DNA of 64,000 bases from Flavobacterium gilvum (lineage in GTDB: Bacteria; Bacteroidota; Bacteroidia; Flavobacteriales; Flavobacteriaceae). The stretch is taken from positions 2,914,001 through 2,978,000 of the forward strand of contig NZ_CP017479.1 of assembly GCF_001761465.1 (NCBI RefSeq). Direction: 5' to 3'. Below, piece by piece: positions 43,405 to 47,354 of this stretch. Position 1 is the stretch's first letter. Each line of letters starts with the position of its first letter. The notes under the pieces are model-generated. The model saw only the letters and a program-made list of their open reading frames with translations. It searched no databases and was not told the origin of the DNA. The position numbers and the translations under genes were made by a program.

Positions 43405-46236
43405 ATGTTAGATACAGACAATACGATTGAAGTTCAGGGCGCACGCGTTCACAATCTAAAAAATATAGATATTTCTATTCCTCGCGAAAAACTGGTAGTT
43501 ATTACAGGGCTTTCGGGTTCGGGCAAATCATCATTGGCATTTGATACTATTTATGCCGAGGGACAACGTCGATATGTAGAAACATTTTCGGCTTACGCGA
43601 GACAATTTCTTGGCGGATTGGAACGTCCGGAAGTCGATAAAATTGACGGACTCTCCCCTGTTATCGCAATCGAACAAAAAACGACCAGCAAAAGTCCTCG
43701 TTCTACAGTAGGCACCATTACAGAAATTTATGATTTTCTGCGATTGCTTTATGCTCGTGGTGCAGATGCCTACAGTTATAATACGGGCGAAAAAATGGTT
43801 TCCTACTCGGATGACCAAATCAAAGAACTAATTATTCAGGATTTCATTGGAAAGCGAATTAATATTCTTGCTCCGGTTATCAGAGCCAGAAAAGGACATT
43901 ATGCCGAACTTTTTCAGCAAATTACCAAACAAGGATTCCTGAAGGTTCGTGTTAATAGCGATATTTTGGACTTGGTTTCGGGTATGAAATTAGATCGTTA
44001 CAAGACTCATGATATTGAAATCGTTGTTGATAGAATGGTCATTGAGAACACTCCTGACAATGAAAAACGTTTATCCGAAAGTATCAATACGGCGATGCAT
44101 CACGGAGAAAATGTATTGATGGTTCTTGATCAGGATACGAATGAAGTACGTTATTTTAGTAGAAATTTGATGTGTCCAAGTACCGGAATATCCTATCAAA
44201 ATCCGGAACCCAATTTGTTTTCTTTCAACTCCCCAAAAGGAGCCTGTGATAGTTGCAACGGATTGGGAACGATAAATCAAATCAATCTAGATAAAATCAT
44301 TCCGAATCCTAAATTATCAATAAAAAATGGTGGATTTGCGCCTTTGGGCGAATACAGATCATCGTGGATTTTTAAGCAGTTGGAAATTATTGGTGAGAAA
44401 TTTGGCTTTAAAATAACCGACCCTATCGAAACTATTTCTGCAGAAGCAATGGAAATGATTTTGAATGGAGGAAAAGAAAAATTTGCAATTGAATCTAAAG
44501 TTTTAGGTGTTACCAAAGAATACAAAATCGACTTCGAGGGTATAGCTCATTTTATAAAAACCCAGCATGATGAAAGTGGCTCAACCACAATCAAGCGTTG
44601 GGCCAAGGAATTTATGGACGAAGTAAAATGTCCTACCTGCGAAGGTTCAAGATTAAAAAAAGAAGCAAATTATTTTAGAATAAATAAAAAAAGCATATCC
44701 GAGTTGTGTGATATGGATATTTCGGATTTGACAGCTTGGTTTTTGGATTTAGACCATCATTTATCTGATAAACAAAAAAGAATAGCGACTGAAGTTATCA
44801 AGGAAATCAAAGATCGTTTAGCTTTCCTAATGAATGTAGGTTTGGATTATTTGGCTTTGAGCCGAAGTTCCAAATCGCTTTCGGGTGGAGAAGCTCAACG
44901 CATTCGATTGGCGACACAAATCGGTTCGCAGCTAGTGGGTGTTTTATATATTTTGGACGAGCCGAGTATTGGTCTGCACCAAAGGGATAACGAAAAATTG
45001 ATTCATTCTTTGGAGCAATTGCGGGATATAGGCAATTCGGTTATTGTGGTTGAACACGACAAAGACATGATTGAACGTGCCGATTATGTAATAGACATCG
45101 GTCCAAAAGCCGGTAAATATGGAGGCGAAATCATAAGTATTGGAACTCCGAAAGAAACTTTGGAATCCGATACGATTACTGCTCAATATTTGAATGGAAA
45201 AATGAAATTGGAAATTCCATCAACACGTCGTGAAGGAAATGGCAAATTCCTAAAACTAACCGGTGCTACAGGAAATAATCTGAAAAATGTTTCGATTGAA
45301 TTACCTTTGGGTAAAATGTTGTGCGTTACAGGTGTTTCCGGCAGCGGTAAATCGACATTGATTAACGAGACCCTATACCCTATTTTGAACGCGCATTATT
45401 TTAATGGTGTTAAAATTCCGATGCCTTATAAAAAAATAGAAGGTTTGGAACATATCGATAAAGTGATTGATATCGATCAAAGTCCGATTGGAAGAACACC
45501 TCGTTCGAATCCTGCCACATACACCGAAGTTTTTACCGAAATAAGAAACTTGTTTACGATGACTTCTGAAAGTATGATTCGAGGATACAAAGCGGGACGT
45601 TTTAGTTTTAATGTAAAAGGTGGTCGATGCGAAACCTGCGAAGGCTCTGGAGTGCGCACGATCGAAATGAACTTTTTGCCTGATGTTTATGTAGAATGCG
45701 AAACCTGTCAGGGGAAGCGTTTTAACAGAGAAACGCTAGAAATTCGATATAAAGGAAAATCCATTTCGGATGTGTTGAATATGACGGTAGACGAAGCCGT
45801 TCCATTCTTTGAAAACATTCCAAAAATATACCGAAAAATAAAAACGATTCAGGATGTTGGTTTGGGTTACATCACGCTGGGACAACAAAGTACAACTCTT
45901 TCGGGAGGTGAAGCGCAACGTATTAAACTGGCGGGAGAATTGTCTAAAAAAGATACCGGAAACACTTTTTATATTCTTGATGAACCCACAACAGGTTTGC
46001 ATTTTGAAGATATTCGGGTATTGATGGACGTGATTAACAAATTGGTAGACAAAGGGAATACCATTTTGATTATCGAACACAATATGGATGTTATCAAACT
46101 TGCCGATTATATCATCGATATTGGCCCTGAAGGTGGAAAAGGCGGCGGACAGCTTGTCGCCAAAGGAACTCCTGAAGAAATCGTGAAAAATAAAAAAAGC
46201 TATACAGCACAATTTTTGAAAAAAGAGTTATCTTAA
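43405..46236 (+). CDS. uvrA: Excinuclease ABC subunit A
   Basis: UvrA scans DNA for damage as a dimer and loads UvrB. The 943-residue protein has two ABC modules: Walker [10 protein letters not shown] (35-43) and GVSGSGKST (near 646-654), signatures [12 protein letters not shown] and [12 protein letters not shown], and Walker [13 protein letters not shown] and [12 protein letters not shown]. Zinc modules are [17 protein letters not shown] and [10 protein letters not shown]. The stop is TAA formed by the junction with a GC-rich repeat, and the last 51 bp recur at 47162-47212, where the same frame ends with TAG. That second copy probably preserves the original 3' end. Confidence 0.96.
46185..46235 (+). 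repeat. 51-bp direct repeat, copy 1 (uvrA 3' end)
   Basis: The last 51 bp of uvrA before the third base of its stop; identical to 47162-47212. Confidence 0.9.
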
Positions 46237-46401
46237 TTCCCCTCTCCTAGAGGGGTGCCCGTAGGGCGGGGTGTTTAGTCTGTTGATTAATTTTTTTTCG
46301 TGAATTTATTTCCAAAATAATATAATTAGGGAATTAGGAAAATGATTGATATAAATTAAAAAACCACCCCGCCCTATGGACACCCCTCCAGAGGTTGGGA
46401 A
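46235..46401. mobile_element. Non-autonomous element with GC-rich inverted ends
   Basis: Left arm 46235-46276 (AATTCCCCTCTCCTAGAGG..., with GCCCgtaGGGC) and right arm 46361-46401 are inverted relatives. Between them are only about 85 bp of AT-rich DNA. The inner sequence (GTGAATTTATTTCCAAAAT-like) resembles the region just before the DUF559 gene in the element at 46529, so this looks like an internal-deletion derivative. Confidence 0.75.
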
Positions 46402-46528
46402 ATGAGACCGGGTATCAGAATCAAAACATCTAAAAGAATCAGAAAAAATTTTAAAACGTGATTTAAGAGAAATTTTATAAAATATAAATAATTATTCATC
46501 ACATTTTCAAAAAAGGTTCAGTTACTTT

Positions 46529-47131
46529 AATTCCCCTCTCCTAGAGGGATGCCCATAGGGCGGGGTGTTTTTTCTGTAAACTAAATCGTATTTTCAATAA
46601 GCAGTATTGTTATTTTTTTTGTAAATTTATTCTTAAAAATAAATACATGAAAAGTAATAATGATATAACTGCATACATAAATAACTTCCCCGTTTATAGA
46701 AATTTTGTCGAAAACCTACCTTATAATATAAAACTAAAATCAAGAGCCAGAGCTTTGCGTAAGGCAGGAGTATTATCAGAAGTTATTTTTTGGTTACAGG
46801 TTCATAAAGGGATGTTTTGGAAAATAGATTTTGACAGACAAAGAATCATAGGTAATTATATAGTTGACTTTTATATAAAATCTTTAGGATTGATAATCGA
46901 AATTGACGGAGCTAGCCATAATGACAAAGAGGAATACGACAGCAAAAGAGAAAATTATTTTATTTCCTTAGGCTTGAAAATTTTCAAAATTTCAGATTTG
47001 AGAGTAAAGCACGATTTGAATAATGTAATGATGGAATTGGAGAAATATATTATTGAGGAGTTTGGGTGAAATCATTTGAACAGACTAAAAAACCACCCCG
47101 CCCTATGGGCACCCCTCCAGAGGAGGGGAAA
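46529..47131 (+). mobile_element. Element carrying a DUF559 nuclease gene
   Basis: Left arm 46529-46572 and right arm 47090-47131 are inverted copies, sharing AATTCCCCTC-type ends, a CCCTCtcctAGAGGG hairpin, GCCCatAGGGC and the tract GGCGGGGTGkTTTTT. The right arm reversed also shares TTTAGTCTGTT with the first element. One gene for a PD-(D/E)XK nuclease lies inside. GC content of the arms is far above the rest of the genome. Confidence 0.75.
46647..47069 (+). CDS. DUF559-domain endonuclease
   Basis: A 140-residue protein of the DUF559/Vsr-like PD-(D/E)XK nuclease group. Positions match the core: Glu 45 in SEVIFW, Asp 74 in NYIVDFYIKSLGL, and Glu 85/Asp 87 in IIEIDGASH. FDRQRIIGNY (62-71) is the strand before the catalytic Asp, and FKISDLRV follows the last helix. 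Relatives include very-short-patch repair nucleases and many uncharacterised proteins. The gene starts inside an element whose ends are inverted repeats, so it is likely the mobility or maintenance gene of that element. The exact cut is unknown. Confidence 0.85.
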   Translation: MKSNNDITAYINNFPVYRNFVENLPYNIKLKSRARALRKAGVLSEVIFWLQVHKGMFWKIDFDRQRIIGNYIVDFYIKSLGLIIEIDGASHNDKEEYDSKRENYFISLGLKIFKISDLRVKHDLNNVMMELEKYIIEEFG

Positions 47132-47161
47132 TGAAACTGGAGAGTTTTTGTAAAAAAAATG

Positions 47162-47212
47162 GAAAAATAAAAAAAGCTATACAGCACAATTTTTGAAAAA
47201 AGAGTTATCTTA
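47162..47212 (+). repeat. 51-bp direct repeat, copy 2
   Basis: Exact copy of uvrA bases 46185-46235, in the same frame and followed by G so that the frame ends with TAG. It is out of reach of uvrA translation. Confidence 0.9.
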
Positions 47213-47260
47213 GTAAAACATCTTATTAAAGATTGAGTTTAAACTGAAAACAGATGCCCT

Positions 47261-47331
47261 AGCCCCGATAGAAGTGGAAATCCTTTTTATTTTTTCTTTA
47301 AAAATAAAAAGATTGTAGCGTATAGCGGGAA
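47261..47331. ncRNA. Structured repeat, copy B (Flavo-1-like)
   Basis: A 71-nt copy of the element at 23110. The 12-bp stem is CTTTTTATTTTT with its reverse complement, closing the same TCTTT loop, so two base pairs differ from copy A with both partners changed. It ends 23 bp before the LOG-family ATG. Confidence 0.65.
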
Positions 47332-47354
47332 AAAGCTTCAAAAAATAATAAAAA

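Follow-up and report, generated by a model that had tools for sequence, protein, structure and literature searches.

Directly behind the DNA-repair gene uvrA in Flavobacterium gilvum stand two adjacent units bounded by GC-rich inverted repeats (here called arms), one enclosing a DUF559 nuclease gene and the other no gene. Are these units parts of a mobile repeat system, and is the nuclease the enzyme that runs it? Both lie in a stretch of 64,000 nucleotides (NZ_CP017479.1, positions 2,914,001 to 2,978,000), which we call the window and whose numbering we use below. The initial annotation, made from the letters alone, had read them as an autonomous and a nonautonomous mobile repeat, analogous to repetitive extragenic palindromic (REP) sequences with their transposase, with a Vsr-like nuclease in place of a HUH protein. 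That interpretation is supported by our sequence comparisons, namely by the dispersal of the arms and the co-divergence of arm and nuclease. At a probability of roughly 0.7, we read this small and seemingly selfish element as a REPtron-like mobile palindrome run by a homing-type PD-(D/E)XK nuclease in place of the HUH protein. Comparison between genomes shows that whole elements sit at a few sites, in conserved genes or at their ends, and that relatives have empty versions of these sites; that single arms and gene-less doublets are dispersed, one doublet being present or absent at the same place; and that arm type follows nuclease lineage and not genome, arm and nuclease forming one co-diverging pair. 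Site preference, a doubled uvrA end, and in-frame insertions go beyond the earlier account.

The features of the locus are listed here by coordinates, strand, and description.

43405..46236, + strand: uvrA, the target gene (open reading frame); the element starts directly at its stop codon (TAATTCCCC)
46185..46235, + strand: left copy of a 51-nt direct repeat (the uvrA 3' end, in use); the pair is 100% identical
46231..46276, + strand: left arm of the gene-less sibling (hairpin 1, T, hairpin 2, GGGGTG), from repeat, arm-pattern, and folding searches
46235..46401, no strand assigned: gene-less sibling, a possible internal-deletion derivative, with a remnant common to three other genomes (alignment)
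46362..46407, - strand: right arm of the gene-less sibling, degenerate (arm pattern with 2 mismatches; folding)
46526..46573, + strand: left arm of the nuclease element, from repeat, arm-pattern, and folding searches
46647..47069, + strand: DUF559 nuclease, 140 amino acids, Vsr/EDxHD-like PD-(D/E)XK fold (Pfam, alignment, profile, and model)
47088..47135, - strand: right arm of the nuclease element, from repeat, arm-pattern, and folding searches
47162..47212, + strand: right copy of the 51-nt direct repeat, the displaced uvrA end; the next base is G, which gives the stop TAG

The two adjacent units were confirmed as whole units bounded by arm pairs, at 46231-46408 (gene-less) and 46526-47135, and the latter encloses an intact gene whose product matches DUF559 in Pfam with an E value of 6.9e-24. 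The arms of the nuclease element are 48 nt long, inverted, and 85% complementary; those of the gene-less sibling are 46 nt long and 78% complementary, with 85 nt between them. With up to 3 mismatches allowed, the arm pattern matches nowhere in the window but at these four arms, and 100 shuffles gave 0. Two hairpins had been claimed for every arm, and this held for three of the four (folding z of -1.75, -2.55, and -3.24) and not for the degenerate arm at 46362-46407 (z of -0.18). The sibling aligns as the left end plus the right end of the nuclease unit. Its spacer had been described as similar to the leader of the nuclease gene; this likeness was weak, being reached by 72 of 2000 shuffles, as was a likeness to the 3' end of that gene (57 of 2000). 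Because this similarity is insufficiently significant, we dropped internal deletion of the nuclease unit as the proved origin of the sibling and regard it as a plausible one. In the uvrA elements of G154, G238, and G007 (G, C, and L numbers are our handles for genomes, contigs, and loci), the nuclease is likewise preceded by a left arm, then a short leader, and then a right arm that is degenerate. Because the same remnant stands before the nuclease in all three, the composite of sibling and nuclease looks like an old arrangement and not like a recent second insertion.

The pairing of arms with the nuclease recurs well beyond the window. An inward-facing arm pair (+ upstream and - downstream, at most 200 nt away) was present at 25 of 30 loci with a nuclease of the window type. 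In a scan of 86 such loci (L132-L161 and L192-L247, leaving out 24 more distant loci, L248-L271), 74 had at least one arm and 49 had arms on both sides; with each gene counted once, these values were 68 and 45 of 80 distinct loci. With score thresholds that were picked after the scores were known, GC-rich inverted repeats surrounded 55 of 92 DUF559 domains of the genus compared with 1 of 351 displaced controls, 47 of 78 in named genomes compared with 1 of 295, and 18 of 27 in a phylum-wide set compared with 0 of 110. Left out for short flanks were 1 of 93 genus domains, 2 of 80 named-genome loci, and 3 of 30 phylum loci, and the named-genome set overlaps the genus set by at least 6 genes. The genus set comprised 91 loci among the matches listed: 30 from the search, L001 of the window genome, and 60 picked by us, in list order at first and later favoring free-standing genes.

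Next, we compared how arms and nucleases diverge. Across differing insertion sites, arm distance tracks nuclease distance (Spearman 0.63, permutation maximum 0.21, using 70 domains that passed an arm filter), and the relation held for free-standing genes alone (Spearman 0.45, permutation maximum 0.42). From 93 arm-filtered domains we drew 22 that have a same-genome partner more than 50% different; in 22 of 22, the arm was nearer to that of the nuclease's closest relative elsewhere than to the arm of the other lineage in the same genome. Other DUF559 lineages have other arms, for example AGCCCCCCCCGCCCCCGAAGGGGGAGCT in the case of metH and CCCCTCTTGAGAGGGGTTAGGGGTGTG beside some free-standing genes, and these again consist of a hairpin adjoining a run of G or C. 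The arms might instead be independent REP-like repeats moved by another enzyme, for example RAYT, between which nuclease genes repeatedly land. Forty-four of the 81 arm-bearing genomes have no window-type nuclease, and Y1 (RAYT) transposase genes are present in 18 of 20 genomes with arms and in 14 of 20 without, all hand-chosen, both of which would suit such independence. However, arms were present at 0 of 30 RAYT loci examined in the genus, where a longer list of Y1 matches exists, and on this count we rejected mobilization by RAYT. The inward-facing pairs around the gene and the 22 of 22 result also speak against independent repeats, as co-divergence does in general, and we hold this explanation to be distinctly improbable.

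The arms are not confined to the uvrA locus. In the window genome, 18 arms were found at up to 3 mismatches (a reversed-pattern control gave 0) beside a single DUF559 gene, so there are dispersed gene-less copies, and arms occur in 81 of 299 genomes of the genus. Besides the two pairs in the window, the window genome has five close inverted doublets, 51 to 71 nt from start to start, and an outward-facing doublet of about 51 nt is also present in G007, G066, G194, G218, and G302. The plan of the window-type arm is fixed as hairpin 1, T, a covarying hairpin 2, and GGGGTG. When hairpin 1 and the tag were demanded and hairpin-2 pairing was not, 35 of 48 distinct segments were fully paired at the four outer positions of hairpin 2, whereas 2000 reshuffles gave 16.5 on average and 24 at most. 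The stems change from GCCC/GGGC to GTCC/GGAC, GCCT/AGGC, or GTCA/TGAC and reach up to 13 bp. Among 30 syntenic loci, the best of 101 genomes, a gene-less doublet between xthA and an ompA-like gene was present in the window genome only; the alignment has an insertion-like gap of about 130 nt, and two of the 29 relatives from which the doublet is absent are 95% identical in the XthA stretch used. The search over Flavobacterium genomes thus found many arm pairs, of which many have a DUF559 gene, and it found relatives whose sites are empty. The proposed relation between autonomous and nonautonomous units is well supported at the xthA-ompA locus and at a site in metH described below; for the sibling in the window, a deletion origin is no more than plausible. 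As observations on arm density, twelve near-identical arms stand on one strand at G154:C1:95873-97588, mostly spaced by about 153 bp, and at L153 (G088:C1:1810117-1813457) arms in both directions are dense around one DUF559 gene.

These properties resemble those of REPtrons, that is, REPs or REPINs with their RAYT (TnpAREP), as set out in the REPtron paper (PMC8266576). In both, short GC-rich palindromes carry a conserved tag, the nuclease gene is single-copy with palindrome copies beside it, dispersed copies stand singly or as inverted doublets, and nuclease and repeat co-diverge. The systems differ in that the protein here is of the PD-(D/E)XK type and that of the REPtron is a HUH (Y1) protein, and in that the tag here is GGGGTG after the hairpins, of which window-type arms have two, whereas the REPtron has GTAG before one. 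Additionally, we observed whole elements with occupied and empty sites and copies in frame in essential genes; for tnpAREP, the REPtron paper states that evidence of mobility is lacking (PMC8266576). Because the HUH nuclease, a defining feature, is absent, the element works like a REPtron yet is not one.

Whole elements occupy particular sites. The nine most similar nuclease copies, at about 78% identity or more and including that of the window, all start at the uvrA stop codon, with the junction TAATTCCCC or one with one or two extra bases. A second uvrA end lies to the right of the element in 7 of the 9 occupied genomes, and an eighth case is weak. In the window, this is the exact 51-nt direct repeat of 46185-46235 at 47162-47212, by which the uvrA 3' end is doubled beyond the elements; it ends in a TAG stop, and across the uvrA lineage the duplication is about 27 to 100 nt long. 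The set of 30 uvrA loci was the best-scoring of 121 genomes. Among the uvrA loci read, the 26 unoccupied ones had no clear second uvrA copy (L184 gave two weak matches) and no arm at the stop codon; 14 of the 26 unoccupied genes end in TAG. Gene ends are also shared by groups of other window-type loci, whose flanks have in common the 3' end of a photolyase (L141, L143, L146, and L147, and L148 on the left side), of an aminotransferase (L151 and L152), or of an aldehyde dehydrogenase (L156, L157, and L160), these three gene names being our own reading of the sequences. Insertion sequence (IS) elements and miniature inverted-repeat transposable elements (MITEs) likewise have a gene between terminal inverted repeats along with gene-less derivatives. 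The elements described here differ from them in a nuclease fold unlike that of usual transposases, in arms that are covarying hairpins, and in having no short constant target duplication, with about 27 to 100 nt in the uvrA lineage and none consistent in others. We accordingly dropped a general target duplication, as it was found in the uvrA lineage only. The uvrA-site nuclease of L137 (G238) has an in-frame TAG in its match and is therefore probably decaying. Just right of the doubled uvrA end in the window, at 47257-47336 (+), lies a Flavo-1 RNA (RF01705, 81.5 bits), and a Flavo-1-like sequence was seen by eye after uvrA in several relatives.

Many DUF559 domains of the genus sit inside long open frames. 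Hosts were labeled by motifs (1 of 61 remained without a label) and, for 7 proteins, by Pfam, which identified metH, leuS, and a UvrD-type helicase. At metH site 2, the 28 readable loci comprised 14 with no arm, 2 with one arm (that of L061 being degenerate), 3 with two arms and no gene, and 9 with arm, nuclease, and arm, all in frame; these metH loci were fetched for holding DUF559, so the counts are not frequencies in the genus. A loop in leuS has no arm in L062, two arms in L070, and one in L029. Such in-frame palindromes were seen in relatives and are absent from the window. Because arms are read through in frame within metH and leuS, we rejected the possibility, raised at the outset, that they are plain terminators. 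On a tree of 93 domains, the 60 labeled in-frame domains need 6 site changes, compared with at least 24 for shuffled labels. Twenty-one of the 27 domains at metH site 1 form one group, the other 6 falling among the 11 of metH site 2; leuS domains form groups of 9, 5, and 1, and the helicase site has one group of 7. Given these mixed metH and leuS groups, a strict rule of one clade for one site was rejected.

Palindromic repeats in frame in housekeeping genes are described for Rickettsia palindromic elements in two papers (PMC3733652 and PMC2996958). The likeness lies in a palindrome inserted in frame in protein genes; the difference is that here the same loop has versions with and without the nuclease. 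To our knowledge, no nuclease gene has been linked to the Rickettsia elements. At metH site 2, the loop without an element (for example in L063, L069, and L071) often has a short in-frame tandem repeat, ACAACCGACAACC, and therefore tolerates several kinds of insertion. In L079 and its relatives, the group of 7, the host of the in-frame DUF559 is a UvrD-type helicase with a PD-(D/E)XK domain of its own at the end, so that one nuclease domain is nested in the gene of another nuclease (by Pfam for L079). A window-type nuclease was also found in open frames of 1333 amino acids (G241:C48:9957-10346) and 1265 amino acids (G061:C94:1435-1824), which suggests that the window-type lineage may insert in frame as well.

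With both kinds of site described, we considered whether DUF559 is merely a homing endonuclease aimed at conserved genes, with arms that are accessory hairpins, such as terminators or insulators of the inserted gene, and travel along. The grouping of in-frame nucleases mostly by site (the 6 changes among 60), the sharing of flanks in groups by free-standing nucleases, the homology to the homing enzyme I-Bth0305I, and the position of arms directly at the ends of uvrA, photolyase, and aldehyde dehydrogenase genes are all in keeping with such a view. However, accessory hairpins would not be expected as gene-less arms dispersed through the genome and in doublets, including the doublet present in one genome and absent from 29; nor would they be expected in frame within coding sequence, or as like arms on both sides of the gene. 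We consider this explanation unlikely, if less so than independent REP-like repeats.

We next turned to the nuclease itself. In 37 aligned sequences, R38, E45, W49, Q65, D74, F75, E85, H91, and D98 are invariant; E45, D74, E85, H91, and D98 make up a putative E-D-x-H-D set in this alignment. A profile search matched 3HRL (NGO0050, endonuclease-like) with an E value of 1.3e-29 and I-Bth0305I (3R3P) with 4.2e-5. The predicted structure (pLDDT 91.6) gave the same two, 3HRL and 3R3P, as first-ranked in a fold search, the Foldseek match to I-Bth0305I having an E value of 1.7e-4 and TM of 0.50 to 0.58. A DUF559 gene has been assigned to the EDxHD family (PMC9403480). The elements resemble EDxHD homing endonucleases such as I-Bth0305I in sequence and fold and in their patchy lineages, each of which tends to stay with particular sites in conserved genes. 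Unlike them, they have no intron or intein, have structured inverted repeats as bounds, and have gene-less derivatives dispersed through the genome. No Rfam intron family matched the window element or four loci, and no intein domain was found by Pfam in the 7 fused proteins, and we therefore rejected carriage by an intron or intein. By these comparisons, the nuclease is related to the EDxHD homing enzymes but sits in neither an intron nor an intein. Rfam matches to MIR4208 and MIR2606 were far below gathering scores and reflect the palindromes only. Phage-borne origin was rejected as well, since one scan of viral contigs gave just 3 distant relatives.

It could also be that the nuclease is a chromosomal mismatch-repair enzyme of the very-short-patch (VSP) type, or part of a defense system, and that the surrounding repeats are incidental. 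DUF559 proteins do include the Vsr-like VsrA of Caulobacter, which sets off an SOS response in a mutant lacking a methyltransferase (PMC12907096). Against a repair or defense function stand the recurrence of similar flanks in other phyla and at sites unrelated to one another, the in-frame copies inside metH and leuS, and the patchy presence of DUF559 in 218 of 398 genomes of the genus. We regard this explanation as highly improbable.

Several observations weigh against our reading of a REPtron-like palindrome run by a homing-type nuclease. Arms are found in 37 of 38 genomes with a window-type nuclease and in 44 of 261 others (Fisher p 1.8e-23), an association that is partly circular, since the nuclease's own arms are counted. 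Those 44 genomes bear arms without such a nuclease, and G005 has 7 arms and zero DUF559 matches; arms therefore persist or move without the nuclease. Conversely, one finding that the initial annotation had named as refuting does occur: there are DUF559 genes without detectable arms, namely 12 of the 80 distinct window-type loci, where the other 68 have one, and 15 of 21 Firmicutes loci; 37 of the 92 genus domains fall below the flank threshold, some of them with shorter arms. DUF559 is single in the window genome. G164, G236, and G246 have two genes of the window type, but no whole element was shown to have been copied recently inside one genome. Outside the uvrA lineage there is no consistent target duplication: 3 of 16 non-uvrA elements score at least 30, all of them in arm-rich surroundings. 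Site preference is not strict, with two nuclease groups at metH site 1 and three in leuS, and simple inheritance of old insertions could account for part of the site pattern; homing is therefore something that we deduce from it. The same applies to cleavage, arm binding, and movement of the element, for which we reason from sequence.

Given these caveats, we propose that the nuclease recognizes the cognate arm, probably when the arm is extruded or forms a hairpin in single-stranded DNA. The nuclease would nick or cut at the arm, at the target, or at both, and repair synthesis would then copy the element elsewhere. Homing would mostly return whole elements to their own site, and bare arms would be copied in trans as nonautonomous elements. 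Recognition of the arm is the best-supported step because arm and nuclease co-diverge; cutting at the arm or target and copying by repair we infer. In the uvrA lineage, two offset nicks, as from a Vsr-type nickase, could leave the long direct target duplication. Since consistent duplication is seen at uvrA only, more than one route is possible. In-frame copies may persist with their arms read as a short Gly/Pro-rich peptide. According to a review, I-Bth0305I dimerizes on a target of nearly 60 bp (PMC3943268). This length is of the same order as the doublet spacing and the uvrA duplication, although a link between them is speculation on our part.

More tentatively, and at somewhat short of even odds, these elements may make up a class of bacterial mobile element that has no name so far, its recognition pair being a Vsr-fold nuclease of the homing type and a hairpin tag in the DNA. 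Such a class would range over Bacteroidota, would also occur beside some DUF559 genes of Ignavibacteriae and Clostridia, would have two modes, site-specific homing of whole elements and copying of bare hairpins in trans, and would add peptides, and even an entire nuclease domain, to essential proteins such as MetH and LeuS without splicing. If so, DUF559 in these phyla would mainly be a mobile-element enzyme and not a repair enzyme, which would give a common family of "unknown function" a likely job in these bacteria. It would suggest that palindromic repeats can be mobilized by a second, unrelated nuclease fold, and annotation would change, in that proteins such as MetH and LeuS with a fused "DUF559" would count as element insertions. 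The in-frame copies would also be a natural experiment in how conserved enzymes tolerate hairpin DNA and a whole extra domain. Many pairs of arm and nuclease have diverged together, so exchanging partners in vitro would offer a test of recognition. A literature search, with most subscription journals outside it, found no description of such a system; judged by title or start of abstract, none of the papers naming DUF559 was about repeats, and none paired DUF559 with an inverted repeat.

Outside Bacteroidota, the association varies. Just 6 of the 21 Firmicutes loci in the named-genome set score at least 26, and the association of arms with DUF559 there is therefore weaker or differently built. 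Two near-identical loci from Lachnospiraceae metagenome-assembled genomes (L263 and L264) have arms of about 54 nt built on the same plan. In a Gracilibacteria metagenome-assembled genome, L257 holds a DUF559 relative with long flanking inverted repeats and five in-frame stops under translation table 11, which are perhaps TGA codons read as glycine, as in that group.

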